Source of the DNA: Streptococcus ruminantium
Lineage (GTDB): Bacteria > Bacillota > Bacilli > Lactobacillales > Streptococcaceae
Assembly (NCBI RefSeq): GCF_003609975.1
Contig: NZ_AP018400.1
Span: 1,128,501 to 1,192,500, forward strand
DNA: 64,000 nt
Direction: 5' to 3'
The notes beneath the pieces are model-generated. The model was given only the letters and a program-made list of their open reading frames with translations. It was not told the origin of the DNA and ran no database searches. The first letter of the stretch is position 1; each line of letters starts with the position of its first letter. Shown here piece after piece: positions 5,175 to 50,660 of this stretch. A program made the translations under genes and the position numbers.

Positions 5175-6545
5175 TTATTCTTTTGCTGAAAGTGCAGCCA
5201 TGGTGATGTAGTTATATGGCTTGTTGAAATGTGGCAAGAAGAGAATATCCAAAAGAGCTAATTTCTCAATTGTTACGCGCTCTTGGATTGCCAATGAAAA
5301 CATGTGCATACCCATAGAAATATCTTCTTTAGAAGCCATTTGAGCACCGAGAATAACACGAGTATCTTTATCATAAACGATACGGATTTTCACTTCGTGG
5401 TTGTCATGCTCTATGAACTCTGGTTTTTGCAAGTCTGAGAAGTCAGTTGCTACAGCATTGTAACCGAAACGTTTTGCTTTCTCTAAGGTCAAACCAGTTG
5501 AGACCATCTTAAGGTCGTAGATAGAGATACCGTTAGAACCTTGTACACCAGCAGTTTCAAGCTCAGTACCACATGCATTGTGAGCTGCAACGATGGCTGT
5601 ACGAACAGCATTAGTAGCTAAAGCAATGTAGTTTGTATCTTGAAGAGCGTTATCATAGACAGTTGCACAGTCACCGATGGCATACACATCAGGAATGCTT
5701 GTTTCGCCTTTTTTGTTTACAAGGAAGGCACCATTGCGGAAGAGTTCAATCTTACCAGCACCAAGCTCAGTGTTTGGACGGAAACCTACAGCCAAGATGA
5801 CCATGTCAACGTCAAAGGTTTCCTTGTCTGTCACAAGACGCTCAACTTTACCATTACCTTCAACCGCCTGTACAGTCTGACCAAATGCCAACTTGATCCC
5901 ATGCTCTTCCAAGTTTTTGTTCATCAAGTCTGTAAACTCTGGATCGTAGTAACCACCGAGTGATGATTGAGCAATATCCACCAAGATGACTTCTTTGTCA
6001 AGACGCTCAAACGCTTCAGCAAGCTCAACGCCGATATAACCAGCACCAACAACTGCAACACGTTTGATGTCTGGGTTATTGAGTTTCTCAATCACTTCTG
6101 CTGAGTTTTGGTACAATTTAACGAATTGGAGATTTTCAAGAGTTGCCTTAAATTCGCGTGAACCCTCTTGGATTTCTGCCCCCTTGATTGGTGGCAAGAT
6201 CGGCTGTGAACCAGTCGCTAAAATCAACTTATCATAGCTTTCAACATGCTTCTCACCGTTAACGATAGCTGTTACTTCTTTTTTATCATAATCAATAGAC
6301 TCAACTGGTGACTCCATGTAAACTTTTGCACCAGCTGCCTCCAATTTTTCTTTGTCTGAATAGAAAAGACCTTCTGGACCAGAAATTTGCTTACCAATCC
6401 ACAATGCCATACCACATCCCAAGAATGAGATGTTGTTGTTTTGGTCGAAAACGACAACTTCGTTTTCTGCACCATAATTGTTCAGGATCGTATTGATTGC
6501 TGAAGTACCGGCGTGGTTTGCACCGACAACAACGATTTTAGCCAT
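5175..6545 (-). CDS. nox: NADH oxidase (H2O-forming)
   Basis: A 456-residue flavoprotein of the CoA-disulfide reductase/NADH oxidase group, which reduces O2 to water with NADH and regenerates NAD+ during aerobic growth. It shows the FAD-binding start [14 protein letters not shown], the redox-active Cys in [10 protein letters not shown] (about residue 43), a second nucleotide fold [15 protein letters not shown] for NADH, and the FAD phosphate motif [10 protein letters not shown] near 280. I chose the ATG at 6545, preceded by GAAAGTGAGA, over the TTG at 6566, which lies upstream of this ribosome site. It is a single gene with its own promoter and terminator. Confidence 0.93.
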
Positions 6546-6588
6546 AATGTAAAATCTCACTTTCAAAAATAAATTTTTTCCAGTTTAT

Positions 6589-6618
6589 ATTATACAACAG
6601 GCTTGGTACCGATTTCAA
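6589..6618 (-). promoter_or_regulatory. Promoter of nox
   Basis: On the minus strand TTGAAA (6613-6618), 18-base spacer, TATAAT (6589-6594), about 45 bases before the nox start. Confidence 0.7.
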
Positions 6619-6699
6619 AAAATATGCTCAAAATATCACATTTTTTTATAAAAAACTTTTGATGGCCTAACAATGCTATAATAAAGGGTATTCACAAAA

Positions 6700-6726
6700 C
6701 AAAAAAACCTAGATTTCTCTAGGTTA
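6700..6726 (-). terminator. Terminator of the ATP-cone gene
   Basis: AACCTAGA / TCTAGGTT stem with a TTTC loop, followed on the minus strand by a run of T. Confidence 0.8.
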
Positions 6727-6730
6727 TAGC

Positions 6731-7069
6731 TTAGCGTACTTGCTCGAAACGCAGATGAACAATCATCTTATCAGCATAGCCATTGCGTTCCAAATCACGT
6801 TGCAAACGGTATGAAATATAGTGCTCAGCAATCGTAATATAACCAGCATCCAAAAGGCGATGCTCCACCTGCGACTGAACCATACTAATCGTTGGGCGCT
6901 CTGTATGAGCTTCTTCCAAGTCAAGCACTACCTTTTTCGTTACCTGAGCAAGATTTTTCCGCCAAGTCTCATCAATGACATAAACAGTCTGTGCTGCCTT
7001 TAGAATGGCTTGGTAGATTTTATCCGGGTCAAATTCAACAATCTCTCCACTACGTTTAATGACTTGCAT
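6731..7069 (-). CDS. Stand-alone ATP-cone domain protein
   Basis: A 112-residue protein made almost entirely of an ATP-cone, the nucleotide-sensing domain normally fused to ribonucleotide reductases or NrdR. The typical start is visible: MQVIKRSGEIVEFDPDKIYQ, then AILKAAQ, and the C-terminal half with VEHRLLDAGYITIAEHYISY. There is no reductase catalytic domain and no NrdR zinc ribbon. The ATG at 7069 has AAAGGAG seven bases upstream; a longer reading frame to 7129 has no ribosome site and would place the start inside the promoter region. It is likely a regulator responding to ATP/dATP, but the partner is unknown. It is divergent from pepF. Confidence 0.8.
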   Translation of the reverse strand: MQVIKRSGEIVEFDPDKIYQAILKAAQTVYVIDETWRKNLAQVTKKVVLDLEEAHTERPTISMVQSQVEHRLLDAGYITIAEHYISYRLQRDLERNGYADKMIVHLRFEQVR

Positions 7070-7111
7070 AAAAGCTCCTTTCTGGTTTTCAGTAAACCCT
7101 TTCATACTTCT

Positions 7112-7140
7112 ATTATCTAGGTTTTTCACGGTTTTGTCAA
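7112..7140 (-). promoter_or_regulatory. Promoter of the ATP-cone gene
   Basis: Minus strand TTGACA (7135-7140), 17-base spacer, GATAAT (7112-7117). It is close to the divergent pepF promoter. Confidence 0.75.
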
Positions 7141-7158
7141 GTTTCTTTTTCCATTCTA

Positions 7159-7167
7159 TGGTATAAT
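7159..7167 (+). promoter_or_regulatory. Extended -10 promoter of pepF
   Basis: TGGTATAAT (extended -10) 35 bases before the pepF ATG. The -35 region is poor, as is common with extended -10 promoters. Confidence 0.6.
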
Positions 7168-7201
7168 ATCACTATTAACTTAAAAGAAAAAGGAGAAGCC
7201 A

Positions 7202-8992
7202 ATGTCAAATGCAATGCCAAAGCGTCATGAAATAGACGTCCAGCTCACTTGGGATACCCATCTAATTTTCCCAGATAATCAAGCTTACAAGGATGCACTC
7301 GTATCCTACAAGACACAAACTGAACATTTTGAAAGAACCTATAAAGGAAATTTAACAAGTCTCGAAACAATCGTAGCAGCTCTCAAGGACTATGAAGGCC
7401 TCTCAATCCTCGTAAGCAAATTGTCTCACTATGCTTTTCTTCCGCTTGAAGTGGATAAGATGAATACTGAACTTGCTAGTTTATCTAATGATTTCGATTT
7501 AACACTCGCCTATACTACTCCTAAATTGTCCTTCCTTGAAACAGAATTAGGCTTGCTTGATCAAGAAGTTTTAGAAGATGTTATTACGAATCAACCGCAA
7601 TGGAAAGCCTATATTGAAAATATTATCCGTCAGAAACCACATCAGCTTCACCCGCTACAAGAAGAACTTTTGGCCAACTTTGCTCCAACTCTCACCCAAC
7701 CATATAACAACTATGGCGTAACCAAGTTTGAAGATATGACCTTTGATAGTTTCGAGGCTAACGGTGAAACATTGGGAAACAGCTATGTTTTATTTGAGAA
7801 TGACTACGAAATTAGCCACGATACGGAAGTCCGTCGTCGTTCTGCTGCTGGTTTCTATTCTACCTTGAAAAAGTACAAAAATACCACTGCTGCAACTTAC
7901 TTATCTCATATCAAAAACGAGCAAATTGAAGCTCGCCTGCGTGGATTTGATAATACGATTGACTTCCTTTTGCATCGTCAAAATGTGTCACGGGATTTGT
8001 TTGACCGCCAGATTGACATCATCATGAAAGAATTGGCTCCTCATATGCGCCGCTATGTGAAATTAGTTGCTAAGGCGCATGGTTTAGATAAAATTACCCA
8101 TGCCGACTTGAAAATCAGTATTCCATCTAAATTCAACCAGCGGATTACTCCAGAAGAGTCAAAACAATTTTTGATTGACTGTCTAGGTATCCTCGGTGAA
8201 GACTATGTTAAGATGATTGAACAATCATTTGATGAGCGCTGGATTGACTTTGCTCAAAATGAAGGCAAAGCGACAGGTGGTTTCTGCGCCACTCTTTACG
8301 ATGGACCATCTTATATTTTGCTTTCATGGACTGGTTTGATGAATGAAGTCTTGGTACTGGCTCATGAATTGGGGCATGCGGGTCATTTCCAATTGGCTAA
8401 AAAACAAAGTGTTCTTAGCTACGAACCATCACTTTATTTCATTGAGGCACCATCTACTGCCAACGAAGTCTTGACATGTAATACTCTTCTGAAAAATAAC
8501 CAAGATCCGAACTTCCAGGCATACTTGATTAGCGAATTGATTAGTCGCACTTACTTCCACAATATGGTTACCCATCTGCTTGAAGCAGCCTTCCAACGTG
8601 AAGTTTATACTCGTTTGGATAATGATGAATACCTCAATGGTGACATCCTCTGCCAAATCAAATTGGATATCATCAAAGAATTCTGGGGCGAAGACTTTGA
8701 AATCGGTGATGATGCTGGTCTTATTTGGATGCGCCAGCCACACTACTACATTGGTCTTTACCCATACACTTACTCAGCAGGTTTAACAATTGGTACTGCT
8801 ATGGCAAAACAACTGGAAAAAAATCCAGAAGAAGTCGTTGAGAAATGGCTTGAGACCCTTTCACTCGGAGCCAGTCTTTCAGCTCAAGACTTAGCAAAAC
8901 ATGCGGGTGTTGATGTTTCGACCGACAAACCACTAAAAGATACTATCGCCTATGTTGGCTCTTTGGTAGATAAATTAGAATGTTTAGTATAA
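7202..8992 (+). CDS. pepF: Oligoendopeptidase F (M3 metallopeptidase)
   Basis: A 596-residue cytosolic zinc endopeptidase of family M3B that cuts oligopeptides of roughly 7-17 residues during peptide nutrition and peptide turnover. The zinc site HELGHAGH (HExxH) is at about residue 388, and the third ligand Glu lies in EAPSTANEVLT about 25 residues later. The N-terminal helical PepF domain (about 1-110) and the C-terminal block with RQPHYYIGLYPYTYSAGL are also present. Length is normal for PepF. The ATG at 7202 follows AAAAGGAGAAGCC. Confidence 0.95.
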   Translation: MSNAMPKRHEIDVQLTWDTHLIFPDNQAYKDALVSYKTQTEHFERTYKGNLTSLETIVAALKDYEGLSILVSKLSHYAFLPLEVDKMNTELASLSNDFDLTLAYTTPKLSFLETELGLLDQEVLEDVITNQPQWKAYIENIIRQKPHQLHPLQEELLANFAPTLTQPYNNYGVTKFEDMTFDSFEANGETLGNSYVLFENDYEISHDTEVRRRSAAGFYSTLKKYKNTTAATYLSHIKNEQIEARLRGFDNTIDFLLHRQNVSRDLFDRQIDIIMKELAPHMRRYVKLVAKAHGLDKITHADLKISIPSKFNQRITPEESKQFLIDCLGILGEDYVKMIEQSFDERWIDFAQNEGKATGGFCATLYDGPSYILLSWTGLMNEVLVLAHELGHAGHFQLAKKQSVLSYEPSLYFIEAPSTANEVLTCNTLLKNNQDPNFQAYLISELISRTYFHNMVTHLLEAAFQREVYTRLDNDEYLNGDILCQIKLDIIKEFWGEDFEIGDDAGLIWMRQPHYYIGLYPYTYSAGLTIGTAMAKQLEKNPEEVVEKWLETLSLGASLSAQDLAKHAGVDVSTDKPLKDTIAYVGSLVDKLECLV

Positions 8993-43495: not shown

Positions 43496-45214
43496 ATGAC
43501 CTATATAAACAACTACCAAAAATGGCTCGATTTTGCAGAACTTCCGGACTACTTGCGCAAAGAATTGGTCGCAATGGATGAAAAGACAAAGGAAGATGCC
43601 TTCTATACAAACCTTGAGTTCGGTACAGCAGGTATGCGCGGCTATATTGGTGCTGGTACCAACCGTATCAATATCTTTGTTGTCCGTCAAGCTACCGAAG
43701 GCTTGGCTAAATTGGTAGAATCCAAAGGTGAAGAAGCAAAACAACGCGGTATTGCTATCGCTTACGACTCTCGTCACTTCTCACCAGAATTTGCCTTTGA
43801 ATCCGCTCAAGTCTTGGCTGCACATGGTATCAAATCATACGTGTTTGAGAGCCTCCGTCCAACACCTGAATTATCTTTTGCAGTTCGCCATTACAATGCC
43901 ATTGCAGGTATTATGATAACTGCTAGTCACAACCCTAAAGAGTTCAATGGTTACAAAGTCTATGGCGAAGACGGTGGACAAATGCCTCCAGCAGATGCTG
44001 ATGCCTTAACCAATTACATCCGTGCTATTGATAACCCCTTCGCTGTAGAATTAGCCGATCTGGAAGCAAGCAAGGAAAATGGACTTATCACCATTCTCGG
44101 TGAAGAAACAGACCTAAAATACCTTGAGGAACTCAAAGACCTCACCATCAACTCTGACCTGATTGCCGAATATGGTAGAGACATGAAGATTGTCTATACC
44201 CCCCTTCATGGTACAGGAGAGATGCTGGCTCGTCGTGCACTTGCTCAAGCTGGTTTTGAGTCCGTACAAGTTGTCGAAGCACAGGCAACACCAGACCCAG
44301 ACTTCTCAACAGTTGCCTCTCCAAATCCAGAAAGTCAGGCCGCCTTTGCCCTTGCTGAGGAATTGGGACGTCAGGTTGATGCCGATGTTCTATTAGCCAC
44401 TGACCCTGACGCTGATCGTGTTGGTGTAGAAGTTCGCCATGCTGATGGTTCTTACTGGAATCTTTCCGGCAACCAGATCGGTGCAATCATTGCAAAATAT
44501 ATTTTGGAAGCTCACAAACAAGCTGGTACCCTCCCTGCTAACGCTGCTCTCGCCAAGTCAATCGTATCAACTGAACTAGTTACCAAAATTGCTGAAAGCT
44601 ATGGTGCAACTATGTTTAACGTTTTGACTGGTTTCAAATTTATTGCTGAAAAAATTCAAGAATTTGAAGAAAAACACAATCATACTTACATGTTTGGTTT
44701 TGAAGAAAGCTTCGGCTACTTAGTTAAACCATTCGTTCGCGACAAGGATGCTATTCAAGCTGTACTGATGGTTGCGGAAATCGCTGCCTACTACCGCTCA
44801 CGTGGCATGACCTTAGCAGATGGTATTGAGGAAATCTTCAAAGAATACGGCTACTTTGCTGAAAAAACCATCTCTGTTACCCTTTCTGGTAAAGATGGTG
44901 CTGAACAAATCAAGGCAATCATGGCGAAATTCCGTGAAAACTCTCCAGAACAATTTAACTCAACGGATGTTACAGTCTTTGAAGACTTTGCCCTCCAAAC
45001 CAAAACGGACAAGACTGGTAATGTAACAGCTCTGACAACTCCTCCATCTGACGTTTTAAAATATACACTTGCTGATGATTCTTGGTTTGCGGTTCGTCCT
45101 TCCGGAACAGAGCCAAAAATCAAATTCTACATCGCAACTGTTGGTGAAACCTTAGCTCAAGCAGAAGAAAAGATTGCCAACATTGAAAAAGAAATCAACG
45201 AATTTGTTGGGTAA
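43496..45214 (+). CDS. pgm: Phosphoglucomutase / phosphomannomutase
   Basis: A 572-residue alpha-D-phosphohexomutase interconverting glucose-6-phosphate and glucose-1-phosphate, the entry to UDP-glucose and capsule precursors. Phosphoserine loop TASHNPKEFNGYK (about 141-153), metal loop DPDADRVGVE (about 302), sugar loop GFEESFGYL (about 398) and phosphate-binding RPSGTEPKIKFY (about 537) are all present. Length is that of the Gram-positive PgcA type. The ATG at 43496 follows AGAAGGAGAAATAT. Codon use is strongly biased, as expected for a well-expressed gene. Confidence 0.95.
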   Translation: MTYINNYQKWLDFAELPDYLRKELVAMDEKTKEDAFYTNLEFGTAGMRGYIGAGTNRINIFVVRQATEGLAKLVESKGEEAKQRGIAIAYDSRHFSPEFAFESAQVLAAHGIKSYVFESLRPTPELSFAVRHYNAIAGIMITASHNPKEFNGYKVYGEDGGQMPPADADALTNYIRAIDNPFAVELADLEASKENGLITILGEETDLKYLEELKDLTINSDLIAEYGRDMKIVYTPLHGTGEMLARRALAQAGFESVQVVEAQATPDPDFSTVASPNPESQAAFALAEELGRQVDADVLLATDPDADRVGVEVRHADGSYWNLSGNQIGAIIAKYILEAHKQAGTLPANAALAKSIVSTELVTKIAESYGATMFNVLTGFKFIAEKIQEFEEKHNHTYMFGFEESFGYLVKPFVRDKDAIQAVLMVAEIAAYYRSRGMTLADGIEEIFKEYGYFAEKTISVTLSGKDGAEQIKAIMAKFRENSPEQFNSTDVTVFEDFALQTKTDKTGNVTALTTPPSDVLKYTLADDSWFAVRPSGTEPKIKFYIATVGETLAQAEEKIANIEKEINEFVG

Positions 45215-45277
45215 AATTGGGAAAGAGTCCGAGAAAAGATCCGTTCTTAGTCCAAAATAGATAACCAACTGTACTAT

Positions 45278-45330
45278 AAAAGACTTGAAATCAAGGTTTG
45301 TTTAAACCAAATTTCAAGTCTTTTCGTTAT
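45278..45330 (+). terminator. Terminator of pgm
   Basis: AAAGACTTGAAAT / ATTTCAAGTCTTT long stem with an inner GGTTTG-TTTAAACC hairpin, followed by TTTTCGTTATTTT. Confidence 0.85.
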
Positions 45331-45690
45331 TTTATTAATTTTGGCAGCCTCTTTTTCTAAATCATTTCCCCTTAATATCTTAGACTGCTGCCCTGCCACT
45401 TAGTTTTACAAGTTTGATAATCATATCAAACTCTATAAAATCAATGCCATTTTTTATGATGAATTAACAACTTTACTACTCATTTACTTCTGCCATACCA
45501 GCCAATTGCTTCACGGACTATAAATCAGTAATATACTCACTCACAACCAGCAAAACTTTCCATCGTCTAGCGTTTGACTAAACTAGAGAATATACCTTTG
45601 TTTTGCCCACTATCTTTTAATCAATACAGATATATCATAACTAAAAAATTTATTTATTTTTTAACATAGAAAATAGCGGAATCAATTATT
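45331..45690. other. Gene-free stretch before the invertible module
   Basis: About 360 bases, AT-rich, without an open frame that has a ribosome site, and without visible repeats. It probably marks the left border region of acquired DNA. Confidence 0.45.
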
Positions 45691-45691
45691 T

Positions 45692-45701
45692 GTGATATAC
45701 T
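45692..45701 (+). promoter_or_regulatory. Extended -10 promoter facing the invertible module
   Basis: TGATATACT just outside the left inverted repeat, with transcription expected from about 45708, inside the repeat. The -35 region is weak. Confidence 0.5.
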
Positions 45702-45730
45702 AGTGATAATAAAATGTTATCGGTAGGAGA
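45701..45730 (+). repeat. 30-bp inverted repeat, left arm
   Basis: Identical to the reverse complement of 49237-49266. It carries an ATG (45714) and the ribosome site GGTAGGAGA used by the gene to its right. Sequence outside and inside the arm differs from the other arm immediately beyond the 30 bases. Confidence 0.95.
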
Positions 45731-47984
45731 AAGTAAATTGATTAAAGATTTAGAGGAGTTGTTAGAAAAATATCCCAATTTTTCTCAAATTTTCATTCCA
45801 ATAATTTTATCAATCATATTATCGGTTATTCTGTTCATAGCCAAGATTCCACAAAGGTGTTTACAAAAATATAAAAAACGCCAGAAAATTTTTCAGAAAA
45901 AGCAATACATACAGGATAGTGCTTATTTAAAACGGGAATTGGAAATCCAAGAAATTCTTCAGGAACTCATCAAAGAACAGGACCTGACTATTGTATATGG
46001 TGCTCTAGGGCGTGGTAAGACAATTATACTTAAAAAGTTACATGATAGAGTTCTTGATAAAAAAGAAAAATCCCTTAAATTTTCATTGTATATCGATTTA
46101 GAAAAGAAAAATTTAATTAATGAACTGGAGAGAATTACTGAAATAAAGATAGTCAGTCCACTTGATTTTTATAATTGGCTTGATAATCTCCTTTGTCGTA
46201 AAAAATGTCTGATTATCCTAGATAATATTGCTCCGGCACAATACGCCAATATAATCAATTTTTTCCTTGATAATTATCACGTTCAATATAAGGTTATTCT
46301 GGGATTAAATTATATTAATCCTAAGGAATCTTCTCAAATAGAAATAAAGAATTTTGATGCGAAACAAGTTACTGAACTAGCAAAGCTACGTAGATTGGAC
46401 ATTGATGAAGACAATCTTTCAAGAGTGTTTACCTTGACTCAAGGTATTCCTGTCTATGTAGACTATCTTTTTAAAACTAATCGCCGTCCGCTTAACTTTG
46501 AACTCGTGGAGGTTATAACATCTCAATTAGCTATTTGCACTACTGAAGAGAAAGACCTCTTGCAGTCAATCGCTTTGAATAAAGTTCTATATCATGACTT
46601 TACCGAGGAATTATTCTCCACTTTTGATATTGGTCTAATAATGTCTTTGTCATCAAAAGGGTTGATTCAATTTGAAAAAATCACAAAGAATATTGAATTA
46701 AATTCGCTCATTGCTGAACAGTATCTCTCGCATTTAAAGAATGATTACGTGTACGTAAAATTACTGGAGTATTATAAAATACATAGTCAGGAAAATTTTT
46801 TAGAATTATCACTACGAGTGCCTATTGCAATAAAAAATGATTACTCAACTTTTAAGCAAATATTAAAACAATTGTACAACGATGAAAAATATCAATATCT
46901 ACTATATTTGGGTGAGATAATTTTACAAAATGGACCTCAAGTTTTTTTTGATTTTGATAACATTATTGATACTTTTTTTGACTGTTTTATTTCTTCTCTA
47001 TTAAAAATAGGAGATTACAACTACGCGAAAGATATTATCGATAAGATAAATGATTGCGACGTTTTTAATAGCAACCTAATCTATAGAAATGTTCGAACCG
47101 AAGCGATATCTTATAAGATAAATTTCTGTGATCTCTTACATTTAACGAATTCATTCCAAGATGCTATTGAAAACTTAGAATTATTATTGGCAACAAGTAC
47201 CGTATCCTCTGAACAACAAGAACGTTGTAACTATTTAATCTTGCATTGTAAGAGACACATCGGTGAGGACTTAAGCCAAATATCCAAGAACTTTCGTAAA
47301 CTTTCCAACAATAGTCAAGAAATCTATTATCAAATTCGTTCGCTATATTCAGCCTTTTCAATTGATATGTTTCAAAGGAAAAAACACCTGAAAAGAAAAT
47401 TTGCAGAATTGGAAAATAAAATAGATAGTTTACAGCCTAATAACGAGATAGTATTGTTCGCACAGCGTCATTATATTATTTTTTATCGTAAATATTGCAA
47501 TGACTTAGAAAAAGCAGAAAAACTCTTAATAAAAAATATTAAGAGTTTAGAGAATAGCAAATTAAGAATTTTATATGATTATTATTTTGAAGCTGGGGAA
47601 TTATACCGCGAGAAATTCTATTTCCAATCTTCTAAAAAGAATTATAAAGCGAGTGATGATTTCTATGAAAAAGCTATTGCATTTTCAAAAAATGTTGGAG
47701 ATACTAATTTATATCACAACGCCATGATTGGAAGGATATTATTGCAGGAGCAAACTACTAAAGTTACACAAGAAGATTTGAATTTCATTCATCGAGCTAT
47801 TCAAACAAATCCTTTGCTGAATAAAATGCAATTCCAATTAGCTTATTATTATCTAACACATGACTATGGCATGCTTGATGAACTCTCTAAGTATGCTAGG
47901 CTGTTAGAGTATGATGATACTTCTAATATTGCCCAAAAATTATCGAAAAAACAGTCTTGTTTTATACCTTTAACTGTCATGTAA
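45714..47984 (+). CDS. Membrane-anchored STAND-like NTPase with helical repeats
   Basis: A 756-residue protein. One membrane helix (about 24-43: FIPIILSIILSVILFIA) is followed by a basic stretch and a P-loop domain with Walker A IVYGALGRGKT (about 92-102) and Walker B KCLIILDN (about 162). The rest is an NB-ARC/AAA-like continuation (ILGLNYINPKE, LTQGIPVYVDYLF) and about 450 residues of helical TPR-like repeats with many Tyr, Leu and Lys. This is the build of signal-transducing STAND ATPases, including some phage-defence proteins. ATG at 45714 lies in the inverted repeat; the TTG at 45738 fits the ribosome site GGTAGGAGA better. GC content is much lower than in flanking genes. The 3' end overlaps the convergent gene by 15 bases. 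Confidence 0.75.
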   Translation: MLSVGESKLIKDLEELLEKYPNFSQIFIPIILSIILSVILFIAKIPQRCLQKYKKRQKIFQKKQYIQDSAYLKRELEIQEILQELIKEQDLTIVYGALGRGKTIILKKLHDRVLDKKEKSLKFSLYIDLEKKNLINELERITEIKIVSPLDFYNWLDNLLCRKKCLIILDNIAPAQYANIINFFLDNYHVQYKVILGLNYINPKESSQIEIKNFDAKQVTELAKLRRLDIDEDNLSRVFTLTQGIPVYVDYLFKTNRRPLNFELVEVITSQLAICTTEEKDLLQSIALNKVLYHDFTEELFSTFDIGLIMSLSSKGLIQFEKITKNIELNSLIAEQYLSHLKNDYVYVKLLEYYKIHSQENFLELSLRVPIAIKNDYSTFKQILKQLYNDEKYQYLLYLGEIILQNGPQVFFDFDNIIDTFFDCFISSLLKIGDYNYAKDIIDKINDCDVFNSNLIYRNVRTEAISYKINFCDLLHLTNSFQDAIENLELLLATSTVSSEQQERCNYLILHCKRHIGEDLSQISKNFRKLSNNSQEIYYQIRSLYSAFSIDMFQRKKHLKRKFAELENKIDSLQPNNEIVLFAQRHYIIFYRKYCNDLEKAEKLLIKNIKSLENSKLRILYDYYFEAGELYREKFYFQSSKKNYKASDDFYEKAIAFSKNVGDTNLYHNAMIGRILLQEQTTKVTQEDLNFIHRAIQTNPLLNKMQFQLAYYYLTHDYGMLDELSKYARLLEYDDTSNIAQKLSKKQSCFIPLTVM

Positions 47985-49232
47985 ACTTTGTTTAAATTGG
48001 TTAACTTGTGCTTCTGAAAAAGTATAGTTCAGAGTTCGTTTTGCTTTTAAAAAGTTATCAACATGCTTAGTGATTTCATCGCTAGGCATATTATTTTTTA
48101 TTGCCGTTAGTATCGTGACTATAGTACCAATGATATCGATTTCCCAATTATAGCGTGCAATCTCTTGTAAACCAATCCTAATTCCAAAATCATTATAGAT
48201 TTTCTTTTCTCGCTTTGTTACGGATATGCCATAGTGGCAACATGCTTCAAAAAACGCATCTAATTCAATTTGATTAGGAAAAGAGAGCCAAATTTGGTGA
48301 GTTTCAGAATACCGTTCATCACCTACTAAGGTAAAGCCGTTCCTTAGTAACTTTTTAGAAAGGTCTTTGACCATTTGCCGAATATTTTGAGAATAGGCAT
48401 TGCCAAATTTTTCAAATTCAATCAACGTTGTTATCAGACTGAGTATGTGATGAAAATGGGTATTTCTTAAGAAGTCAGGATTGATTGCTTCATATTTTTG
48501 AAGTAACAATCGATTATTTGTCAATATAAGACCACATGTCACCCCTGGAAGAGTTTTATGAGCAGCACCAAACATAATGAAATTATCATCGCTTTTGTTA
48601 AAATATTCAAAGGGATTTTTATTCTCTTTACCAGCAATCAGACCCAGAGTCTGAGTTGCATCGTATAATAAGATACAGTCTTTCGGCAAAATAATCTTTT
48701 CTAAATTAGGTTGGAATAAAATATCAGAAAGACAAACCAATATCCCTTTGGCACTTTCCTCTATAAGTGCTTTATTTAATTGGTCGTAATCAAAATCTAA
48801 TTTATTGTAGTCATAAGGAATATATCTAGTAATTATCCCTAATCTTCGACATATTTTCTTTATTGAGGTATGTCCACCATATTCATCACTTGAAATATAT
48901 ACAATGTCCCCTTCCTCAAATAAAGTCATTAATAACGACGTAACAGCATTAATACCAGATAAGGTGCGTGCATCAGCATATTGTGCACCATATAATTCAA
49001 GACATAGTTCGTTTAAAAAAAGATTAAATTCAAAGAGCTTGCTACTCCCTAAAAAATTATTTTCTTGGTAGGTAGAACTTGCTCCTAGAAGATATTTCTC
49101 TTGCAATGATGAAGAGAGCATAATTTTAGAAAAAGGTGATACAACATTCTCTGCTGCGCATAGAGGAAGTTGATTCTGGTATGTAAAGATTGCATCATTG
49201 TATAGCTGTTTAAATTTCCACAAGGTATCCAT
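47970..49232 (-). CDS. PLP-dependent enzyme resembling serine hydroxymethyltransferase
   Basis: A 420-residue fold-type I PLP enzyme. SHMT-like features: LCAAENVVSPFSKIML (about 24-39), DARTLSGINAVTSLL (about 86), the PLP-binding Asp in LLYDATQTLGLIAG, and the Schiff-base lysine in AAHKTLPGVTCGLIL (about 225), equivalent to the THKT motif of GlyA. The whole is too divergent for housekeeping GlyA, and it lacks folate-pathway neighbours. The ATG at 49232 is preceded by TAGGAGA, which belongs to the right inverted repeat. It could act on an amino acid or on a modified metabolite; the function is unknown. Confidence 0.72.
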   Translation of the reverse strand: MDTLWKFKQLYNDAIFTYQNQLPLCAAENVVSPFSKIMLSSSLQEKYLLGASSTYQENNFLGSSKLFEFNLFLNELCLELYGAQYADARTLSGINAVTSLLMTLFEEGDIVYISSDEYGGHTSIKKICRRLGIITRYIPYDYNKLDFDYDQLNKALIEESAKGILVCLSDILFQPNLEKIILPKDCILLYDATQTLGLIAGKENKNPFEYFNKSDDNFIMFGAAHKTLPGVTCGLILTNNRLLLQKYEAINPDFLRNTHFHHILSLITTLIEFEKFGNAYSQNIRQMVKDLSKKLLRNGFTLVGDERYSETHQIWLSFPNQIELDAFFEACCHYGISVTKREKKIYNDFGIRIGLQEIARYNWEIDIIGTIVTILTAIKNNMPSDEITKHVDNFLKAKRTLNYTFSEAQVNQFKQSLHDS

Positions 49233-49236
49233 AATC

Positions 49237-49266
49237 TCTCCTACCGATAACATTTTATTATCACTA
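49237..49266 (-). repeat. 30-bp inverted repeat, right arm
   Basis: Perfect inverted copy of 45701-45730, giving the PLP-enzyme gene the same ATG and ribosome site as the NTPase gene. The two arms enclose 3506 bases (45731-49236). Confidence 0.95.
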
Positions 49267-49324
49267 TACAAGCACTTTAAATAAGTCTATAATAGCAGCG
49301 TAACAATTTGAAAAGGAGACATTC

Positions 49325-50215
49325 ATGAATTACACTATTATTTCTACTTACTTGGACTACTGCAAAAACCATAGACGTTTAAGCCAACATACTATCCGAG
49401 CATATAAAAATGACCTCAATCAATTTTACAATTCCAAACAGGAAAATATAGAAAATTATGTCGAATACTTAACAAAATCAGATATTAAAACAAGTACCTT
49501 ACGACGAAAAATCGCGTGTCTAAAAGTTTTCTATAACTATCTAAAGTCCCAAAATATAATCAAAGAGAACCCCTTTAGTAAGTTACGCTTTCAATTTCGA
49601 CCGGAAAAATCCTTGCCCAAAACTATTCCTTGTAGGGAATTAAAAAAGATTTATCTATATCTAAGCAAGAGGTGTCTAACTACCAAAACACCTTATCAGA
49701 GACAAAAAGCCGAGCGAAACTTACTTATTATCTCTCTCCTACTATCAACTGGCATAAGGATTTCAGAACTTTGTCATATTCAAATTTCAAGTATCAATCT
49801 CTCAAATCGTACTCTACATATTATGGGTAAAGGAAAAAAAGAACGAATAATATTTTTAGGGGACAATACCACTTTTATCCTATTAAAATCATACATAACA
49901 GCATATTGTAATGAGTCGGATAAGTTTTTATTTCCTGGTAATACTCCACACAGGCCACTATCCGATCAAAGTATCCGCTTAATCTTAAAAAATATTCGAG
50001 AGCATATTCATCTGAATATTCCTATTACACCTCATATGTTTCGACATAGCTTTGCTACGATGTTATTAGATAACGATGTAGATATTCGTTACATCCAACA
50101 AATACTTGGACACAGTTCTATTTCTATAACCCAAATCTACACCCACGTATCACAATCGAAGCAAAAAGAAATCTTAAGTTTATACAATCCAATCACCTCT
50201 ATTCTTCCCAAATAA
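49325..50215 (+). CDS. Tyrosine recombinase (XerC/integrase family)
   Basis: A 296-residue site-specific recombinase. The N-terminal SAM-like DNA-binding domain (about 1-85) is followed by a catalytic domain with all active residues: Arg in STGIRISELCH (about 145), Lys in MGKGKKERIIF (about 172), His-x-x-Arg in TPHMFRHSFATMLL (about 240), His in LGHSSISITQIYTHV (about 263) and the nucleophile Tyr in the same segment. It starts 58 bases outside the right inverted repeat, points away from it, and has AAAAGGAG before the ATG and TATAAT at about 49288. It is the obvious candidate to invert the neighbouring segment. Confidence 0.9.
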   Translation: MNYTIISTYLDYCKNHRRLSQHTIRAYKNDLNQFYNSKQENIENYVEYLTKSDIKTSTLRRKIACLKVFYNYLKSQNIIKENPFSKLRFQFRPEKSLPKTIPCRELKKIYLYLSKRCLTTKTPYQRQKAERNLLIISLLLSTGIRISELCHIQISSINLSNRTLHIMGKGKKERIIFLGDNTTFILLKSYITAYCNESDKFLFPGNTPHRPLSDQSIRLILKNIREHIHLNIPITPHMFRHSFATMLLDNDVDIRYIQQILGHSSISITQIYTHVSQSKQKEILSLYNPITSILPK

Positions 50216-50535
50216 CATGCTTAAGCTGGCGTGAAAAACTTTGAGCAAACTCTATTGTAGAGCCTTTTTAAGCATAGAAAAAACTTACGGACTAACCAAA
50301 CTCCATTAGAAAATTATATGGAATTTAAAATGTTCTACAGCATAGGCGCGCGTTAAACTTGAAATCTCCTATTCGATGAACTGATTCCTCTAAAAAACTA
50401 TGATGCTAAACATAAATGTCGCGTAAACAAAGGAAATAACTACGATGATTGCTCACTCCATCTCAAGAGTAAGTTACTCTCTGTTGACTAGCAACTAACT
50501 AATTCGTGACATCCGTTATTATAAGTATAAAATAT
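50216..50535. other. Gene-free stretch after the recombinase
   Basis: About 320 bases without a credible gene. It contains one inverted repeat, ATGCTTAA (50217-50224) and TTAAGCAT (50268-50275), just after the recombinase stop, without a T-tract. Confidence 0.4.
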
Positions 50536-50582
50536 TAAAAAAGGCATGAATCCCATGGAATATGGAAAAACATACCTTTTAA
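50536..50582 (-). terminator. Terminator of the gls24 operon
   Basis: Minus strand AAAAGGTATG ... CATGCCTTTTTT, a seven-pair stem with a large loop and a six-T tail. Confidence 0.6.
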
Positions 50583-50660
50583 CTATCTAATTTAATTGAA
50601 ACTTAGCAGATAACCTTTCTTGTTTTCCACCAGAGACTTTCATCTCTGTGCTCTTTCAAT

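Follow-up and report, generated by a model that had tools for sequence, protein, structure and literature searches.

What kind of element is formed when two convergent genes are enclosed by perfect inverted repeats with a recombinase gene beside them? The question is raised by a locus in a stretch of 64,000 nucleotides of Streptococcus ruminantium (assembly GCF_003609975.1, contig NZ_AP018400.1, positions 1,128,501 to 1,192,500; hereafter the window), part of a single-contig 2.09-Mb Streptococcus genome, in which genes for a nucleoside triphosphatase (NTPase)-like protein and a pyridoxal phosphate (PLP)-dependent enzyme lie between two 30-bp arms, next to a gene for a tyrosine recombinase (Table 1). 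The locus is probably a recombinase-run, invertible two-gene cassette with exchangeable cargo, and a candidate two-component antiphage system subject to phase variation. Comparison between genomes brings out the frame of arms and recombinase, the crossover within the arms, the two orientations and the exchange of cargo.

The arms are perfect inverted copies, the convergent genes overlap by 15 bp and an intact recombinase gene starts 58 bp outside the right arm, all as stated in the initial annotation of this DNA. An inverted-repeat scan extended the arms to 35 nt at 94%, and the other inverted pairs in 11 kb were weaker, such as those of 42 nt at 71%, 19 nt at 95% and 16 nt at 100%. A 32-bp arm pattern, allowing at most 3 mismatches, was present in 53 of 284 Streptococcus genomes and its reversed control in 0 of 284, which excludes an origin of the arms by chance. 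Loci with two arms numbered 53, of which 52 were from Streptococcus and one (L089) from another family of the order; this set excludes seven loci with one arm, most at contig ends (L042, L122, L126, L130, L133, L142 and L143), one partly masked locus (L053) and three without arms (L072, L090 and L091), and five plasmid loci and L174 were counted outside it. Each of the 53 loci has exactly two inverted arms, with a convergent pair of genes or gene groups between them. The arm consensus, with few deviations, reads TAGT-GATAA-[TAAATWG]-TTATC-GGTAGGAGA, where GGTAGGAGA is the ribosome site used by the facing gene, again as annotated. The bracketed 7-bp core is the same in both arms of each locus (53/53; 0 of 100000 permutations equalled this concordance) yet differs between loci, being TAAATAG in 31, TAAATTG in 19, and TAAGTAG, TTAATAG and, in the window, TAAAATG in one each, as site-specific recombination predicts. 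The outer half of the distal arm, the one far from the recombinase (TATACTAGTGATAA), and its inner half (reverse complement TCTCCTACCGATAA) match at 10 of 14 places and would fit two recombinase half-sites around a spacer. An ATG in the window's arm, mentioned in the initial annotation, does exist and is in frame with both, but was rejected as a shared start: it looks incidental, since it sits in the core TAAAATG, found in 1 of 53 loci, and none of the other cores has an ATG.

The protein encoded beside the arms contains a Phage_integrase domain (PF00589, 1.4e-40, residues 126-277), and the motifs GIRISELC, GKGKKER, HMFRHSF, LGHSS and QIYTHV were read from its sequence. Tyrosine recombinases share the catalytic set R-K-HxxR-H-Y, and by catalytic domain and motif set the protein is a tyrosine site-specific recombinase; it was not named a housekeeping XerC/D because the XerC and XerD models, at 9e-64 and 8e-62, both scored under their cut-offs. 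A recombinase frame of at least 285 amino acids (aa) lies at the proximal arm in 47 of the 53 loci, so that the arms are no mere leader devoid of a recombinase; it starts 55 bp beyond the arm in 46 loci and 58 bp in the window, and among the remaining six L125 is truncated where its contig stops and five have shortened frames. Of 197 genomes examined, 29 besides the window's own had a full-length relative (59-74% identity), and G010 and G022 had broken copies. Among the 29 loci fetched, 27 have the same arm some 85 bp ahead of the recombinase start, the exceptions being a partly masked locus and G006, and just three of the 29 carry the window's genes behind it. An order-wide search (E≤1e-50) found the recombinase in 16 of 246 genomes; the G614 and G812 enzymes (39-40% identity) had no arms at their loci, and that of G006 (59%) none within its 17-kb contig. 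At E≤1e-55, 1 of 398 genomes of the phylum matched, the window's own. Among phage records, three matched at E≤1e-50 (40-43% identity) and 786 at E≤1e-5, one of the latter, outside the 20 matches listed, at 60-80% identity; this one is probably a short piece, being absent at the stricter limit. Locus L142 (G872) consists of a lone distal arm with promoter, with recombinase fragments elsewhere in the genome, and represents a decayed frame. Genome G869 has three frame copies (L138-L140), in each of which the recombinase frame next to the proximal arm is short.

Inversion at this type of locus is almost certain on the comparative evidence. A scan of the genome collection with the PLP protein found three relatives, in Streptococcus sp. 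DD10 (L009, also G090/L053), S. parasanguinis 512 (L010, also G097/L071) and S. suis 10581 (L011, also G120/L054). The recombinase adjoins the PLP gene in the window and L010, and the NTPase gene in L009 and L011, as inversion between the arms gives; aligning related genomes, which the initial annotation had proposed as a check, thus revealed the opposite orientation. Among cassette pairs, which share members and are not independent, same and opposite orientations numbered five and four at ≥99.9% identity, six and five at ≥99.5%, 13 and 12 at ≥99%, and 31 and 31 at ≥95%. For example, the cassettes of L049 and L051 are 99.7% identical and inverted between like-oriented flanks of 98.9% (left, 10 kb) and 97.9% (right, 5 kb) identity; those of L048 and L123 are inverted at 99.94%, with flanks of 98.1% over 5.5 kb and 99.8% over 2.7 kb, and 100% in the nearest 1.2 kb on either side; and those of L085 and L086 are inverted at 99.97% between like-oriented flanks of 97.1% and 99.8%. 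Seven of the ten cargo types described below occur in both orientations among two-arm loci, and an eighth, Thoeris, does so through the one-arm locus L042. Judged from these pairs, whose breakpoints fall at the arms, inversion is frequent on an evolutionary scale. In one assembly (G838), the two proximal junctions are found on contigs C8 and C3. They differ by 2 bases in 425 bp, each located in the inner half of the arm and each agreeing with the other arm. A stretch of 166 bp from the other gene is inverted as well and shows two homopolymer indels close to where the contig stops. Inner-arm bases 22-23 moved together with the gene, which places the crossover inside the arm. This is suggestive of both orientations within one clone.

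A static explanation, in which the arms are duplicated leaders and the orientation differences reflect old rearrangements or assembly errors, could draw on the contigs that end at arms in some draft genomes, but is highly improbable in view of the mixed orientations at ≥99.9% cassette identity, the cores concordant in 53 of 53 loci, and the single-contig genomes G191 and G623, each opposite in orientation to a near-identical cassette elsewhere. Two inverted sites beside a recombinase, an identical core in both and both orientations are features of a site-specific inversion system, and the invertible switch proposed at the outset is in this respect strongly supported. Contig ends at the arms (G886, G854 and G846) and contigs of cassette length (3301 bp for the top cluster of the 766-aa protein introduced below, and 3551-3566 bp in 4 of 15 clusters of the window's NTPase) had been considered as a sign of mixed orientation and were dropped, since a perfect 30-bp repeat alone breaks assembly at short k-mers; they show only that repeats lie at the cassette ends.

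The inverted DNA is not the same in all loci. Ten types of gene pair were defined among the 53: an ATP-grasp protein (A) with a 766-aa protein (8 loci), another ATP-grasp protein (B) with a 780-aa protein (4), a polyprenyl synthase with a 330-aa, apparently membrane-bound protein (10), a 413-aa serine hydroxymethyltransferase (SHMT)-like protein with a 759-aa TPR protein (8), the window's type of a 420-aa SHMT-like and a 756-aa NTPase-like protein (3), a 329-aa protein, GNAT-like by eye, with a methyltransferase (5), a glycosyltransferase 2 (GT2) with a 1014-aa protein (2), ThsA with a TIR protein, that is Thoeris (5, plus the one-arm L042), a caspase + TIR module (5), and a small relative of the latter, here called mini (3). 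The mini loci include 1.9-kb cassettes (L131, L136 and L138) with relatives of only the two outer caspase-module genes, possibly a minimal version of that module. Cargo differs between neighbours as well: in 38 locus pairs, which share members, the left 600 bp and the recombinase side are at least 92% identical around different cargo. L069 and L070 carry ATP-grasp and Thoeris cargo beside right sides of 98-99.9% identity, and L064 and L068 carry Thoeris and caspase cargo beside left flanks of 98.7% over 3 kb. Four S. salivarius megaplasmid records hold three cargo types next to pezAT, namely a methyltransferase in SALI-10 and LAB813 (identical over 16.9 kb), a polyprenyl synthase in NU10, and a PLP enzyme with a TPR protein in ICDC2; S. 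equinus FDAARGOS_251 has the polyprenyl type, and all five plasmid loci (L167-L171) adjoin pezAT toxin-antitoxin genes (pezT). Similar pezAT neighbours were read by eye at several chromosomal loci, such as the flanks of L137 and L085.

These exchanges, with boundaries at the arms and different cargo on megaplasmids of one species, might mean that the recombinase chiefly captures or exchanges cassettes, as in integrons or recombinase-mediated cassette exchange, and that flipping is a by-product. This is rather unlikely: every locus has one pair of inverted sites and no array was seen, the arrangement of promoter and ribosome sites is that of a switch, and the cargo swap between L054 and L055 came with a core change (TTAATAG vs TAAATTG), which should be disallowed for recombinase exchange and would be allowed for homologous recombination in the flanks. 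Because the core differs, the arms must have come along in that swap, which points to flank recombination there. The exchangeability of the cargo is a larger finding than the switch in itself.

In the invertible cassette, the position of promoters bears on what a flip would do. The initial annotation had located the clearest promoter outside the left arm, and the comparison agrees: an extended -10, TGNTATACT, which we take to be of the extended -10 type of streptococci, lies at all but one of the 53 distal arms and at none of the 53 proximal ones. Directly outside the distal arm TGNTATAC is found in 52 of 53 loci, and directly outside the proximal arm TTGTA in 52 and TTTGTATAGT in 47. A consensus scan gave 37 promoter-like sites in the region vs 29.8 expected, so that the recombinase promoter it listed is weakly supported; the extended -10, which is without a -35, was not listed. 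The distal gene is probably transcribed strongly and the proximal gene weakly or not at all; the latter would also be traversed in antisense by the strong transcript, since the window's genes converge and overlap. In the proposed mechanism, the adjacent recombinase would act at the GATAA-7 bp-TTATC cores of both arms and flip the DNA between them, each gene taking its ribosome site from its arm; with the fixed extended -10 outside the distal arm only, the flip would change which of the two genes receives it. We infer that this recombinase is the invertase and that mainly or only one gene is transcribed at a time. A strong promoter bias switched by inversion is quite likely on this layout.

The cassette was initially read as holding two alternative genes, probably wrongly. 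It is more likely that the two are partners and that the switch alters their expression relative to each other, because the same frame carries Thoeris, whose TIR signal activates an effector. In the part of PMC12847820 that describes this system, the effector is activated by a nucleotide signal that the TIR protein produces, and a single operon contains both genes; the relevant section of a review (PMC10952713) assigns the two roles the other way round, although both still act together. This joint action would favour a variant in which inversion is real, both genes are expressed at once and flipping merely tunes the ratio of the partners, the conserved proximal TTGTA and TTTGTATAGT being a possible poor -10. 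Such a variant is a possible but less likely account, as the extended -10 is confined to distal arms, the proximal conservation may stem from the recombinase's own promoter, and the other gene would be opposed by the strong transcript in antisense. A more speculative form of the switch, put forward tentatively, is inversion-gated immunity, in which the two halves are split, only one is strongly transcribed at a time, and a cell would have both for a limited number of generations following a flip. A population would then always keep a small, freshly flipped and armed fraction while most cells avoid autoimmunity, and the frame would be a general socket into which streptococci and gut relatives plug different immune pairs, including such undescribed ones as SHMT-like with NTPase-like, ATP-grasp with a large protein, and prenyl synthase with a membrane protein.

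Taken as a whole, the cargo of the frame is likely to serve immunity, judging from the company it keeps. PADLOC recognised ThsA (1.8e-153 in L070, 8e-100 in L042), its TIR partners with ThsB models (1e-7 and 6e-7), and the caspase (1e-23), which is paired with a ThsB-type TIR. Cargo Pfam matches above cut-off comprised STALD with SIR2_2, TIR_2, Peptidase_C14, ThsB_TIR, Dala_Dala_lig_C, polyprenyl_synt, SHMT, Glycos_transf_2 and, in the 759-aa protein, TPR. In five of the ten types a large protein, NTPase-like on weak support, is paired with a biosynthetic-type enzyme. An NTPase or STAND label was above cut-off in no cargo type: the 759-aa protein matched nSTAND6 at 7e-6 (26.5 vs 27.7 bits) and the 1014-aa protein AAA_22 at 0.018 only, the 766- and 780-aa proteins gave nothing useful, and the NTPase-like label of these last three is a reading by eye. 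The SHMT-like, ATP-grasp, prenyl synthase, glycosyltransferase and methyltransferase genes could alternatively serve to build or alter a small molecule or the cell surface and be phase-varied like surface traits, as might be expected from the seven of ten types without a notable PADLOC match (the mini module lay outside the scan) and the five in which an enzyme of this sort accompanies a large protein. That the cargo is not immunity at all is nonetheless unlikely, given Thoeris, the caspase-TIR module and its mini relative in the same frame, and the several loci that adjoin pezAT on plasmids or DNA resembling integrative and conjugative elements.

The window's own pair is of the large-protein-plus-enzyme pattern. 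The PLP protein has the SHMT domain (PF00464, 9e-13, 48 bits vs a cut-off of 27), aligns with the SHMT chain 4bhd at 3e-50 (alignment A1), and keeps K226, the lysine of the presumed PLP site, invariant in 12 sequences, so that domain and lysine together mark the SHMT fold; its PRK00011 score of 126 is under the cut-off of 335, and a fluorothreonine transaldolase model matched at 6e-35, also under cut-off. The protein is thus described as SHMT-like by fold, with putative catalysis. The NTPase-like protein has an N-terminal hydrophobic stretch and a P-loop, GALGRGKT, read from sequence; AAA/STAND matches were weak and all under cut-off (nSTAND6, E 0.0044, 17.5 vs 27.7 bits), and a poor structure model (mean predicted local distance difference test score of 55) has a helical C-terminal half. 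Neither the TIR protein nor the SIR2-STALD or caspase effector that mark Thoeris is present in the pair; both kinds of component occur in other loci of the same frame. No hsdS-like family was among the matches of the window cassette or of 20 cargo proteins from other loci. A defence role of this pair is somewhat favoured, on account of the frame shared with Thoeris and the pairing pattern; its genes would, as in the other loci, be partners in a two-component antiphage system whose activity is phase-varied between cells.

Several observations weigh against the reading of the locus as a phase-varying immune cassette. All of its support comes from sequence comparison. The PADLOC scan returned no notable match for the window pair. 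The GT2 type, the mini type and all five two-arm Thoeris loci were seen in a single orientation only. The two junctions in G838 could mean a mixed strain or a second copy, and, in view of TTTGTATAGT in 47 of 53 loci, a weak promoter may read inward from the proximal arm.

The plan of the frame is, by its sequence, common to a locus outside Streptococcus. The human-gut scaffold MT835475.1 (L174, region 5537-8870), filed as phage with genes that look bacterial by eye, encodes a recombinase 40% identical to that of the window beside inverted repeats GATGATAACTATAAATTAT at 5537-5555 and 7684-7702, which enclose convergent ThsA- and TIR-like genes (26-34% identity) starting just inside the repeats; the GATAA-7 bp-TTAT plan is kept, one repeat being followed by C and the other by G. 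Relatives of the 766-aa protein (about 42-55% identity, one named Lachnospiraceae) had a longest contig of 3277-3560 bp in 24 of 56 clusters, and those of the SHMT-like protein one of 3.5-3.9 kb in 30 of 120 clusters listed, as if similar cassettes existed in gut Clostridia, which is a lead and no evidence of inversion. The few named sources of 44-55% relatives of both proteins were Lachnospiraceae, Lacrimispora and Clostridiaceae. The window locus had no near DNA match to plasmids, the 766-aa protein no plasmid relatives at E≤1e-30, and two viral-contig scans for wider spread were empty; among the 398 phylum genomes the SHMT-like profile matched the window's own only, and the 766-aa profile none, a zero that carries no weight in such a scan.

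The features of the window locus are collected in Table 1. The likely start codons are ATG 49232 (PLP) and TTG 45738 (NTPase), the latter because no start codon precedes it in the frames of the relatives L010 and L011. The frame sits between a gene read by eye as a phosphoglucomutase (43496-45214) and a cluster past the recombinase that we presume to be Asp23/Gls24-like stress genes (flanks 45215-45700 and 50216-50660). The phosphoglucomutase gene is 83-84% identical to those of G064, G022 and G120 and 73-77% to those of five other compared genomes, and the window genome thus appears nearer to S. suis than to those five. Its left flank grouped with none of the other 52 two-arm loci.

Table 1. 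Coordinates of the invertible locus, numbered from the first base of the window.
Feature	Position	Strand	Remarks
Extended -10 promoter TGTGATATACT	45691..45701	+	last base is base 1 of the left (distal) arm; from sequence
Left (distal) inverted arm	45701..45730	+	recombination site and ribosome site GGTAGGAGA
7-bp core, left copy	45710..45716	+	between GATAA and TTATC; proposed strand-exchange overlap
NTPase-like protein	45738..47984	+	frame open from 45714
SHMT-like PLP-dependent enzyme, 420 aa	47970..49232	-	
Right (proximal) inverted arm	49237..49266	-	
7-bp core, right copy	49251..49257	-	
Possible recombinase promoter TATACA-17-TATAAT	49265..49293	+	consensus match only; -35 overlaps arm edge
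XerC/XerD-like tyrosine recombinase, 296 aa, presumed invertase	49325..50215	+	

Immune systems come at a cost to bacteria, and little is understood of how they are restrained. The frame is likely to be an instance of phase-varied immunity beyond restriction-modification and suggests, on comparative grounds, a general switch for bacterial immunity; it would also be a natural test bed for the weight of each half in a two-component system. Its arms offer a search handle, anything between them being a candidate two-gene defence system, as with the seven PADLOC-silent pair types. Searches of open PubMed Central texts, a collection that leaves subscription papers and preprints mostly outside, found no account of an immune cassette that inverts and exchanges its cargo. 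A survey of S. suis defence systems places Thoeris, in the portion consulted, in <5% of genomes, and a word search of its main text returned phase-variable restriction-modification and no words beginning 'inver' or 'recombinase' (PMC12813430).

Parts of this arrangement are familiar from other systems, and in its working it resembles other phase switches run by tyrosine recombinases. Integrons likewise combine a tyrosine recombinase with exchangeable cargo behind a fixed promoter; they are arrays of single-gene cassettes with attC sites, whereas each of the 53 loci has one inverted site pair (attC-like folds were not searched for). The G segment of phage Mu, flipped by Gin, is an invertible segment with alternative convergent gene sets and an outside promoter, but uses a serine recombinase and carries tail-fibre genes as fixed cargo. 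Invertible promoters, as outlined for Bacteroidales, C. difficile and others, share phase variation by site-specific inversion; there the promoter or switch sequence flips, whereas here the promoter is fixed, a two-gene cassette flips, and cargo is exchanged between strains. The streptococcal PsrA/hsdS system also has a recombinase that flips DNA between inverted repeats beside its own gene, but its repeats lie, in the account given in part of PMC12324116, inside hsdS coding regions and new specificity alleles are made, whereas the repeats described here are short leader sites behind which whole unrelated genes are exchanged at a promoter. Finally, the ThsA + TIR (five loci and L042) and caspase + TIR (five loci) cargoes are of, or resemble, the Thoeris I/IV kind, of which the genes form one operon where described in PMC12847820; in the present loci they are convergent within an invertible cassette, a setting that they share with the window's non-Thoeris pair.

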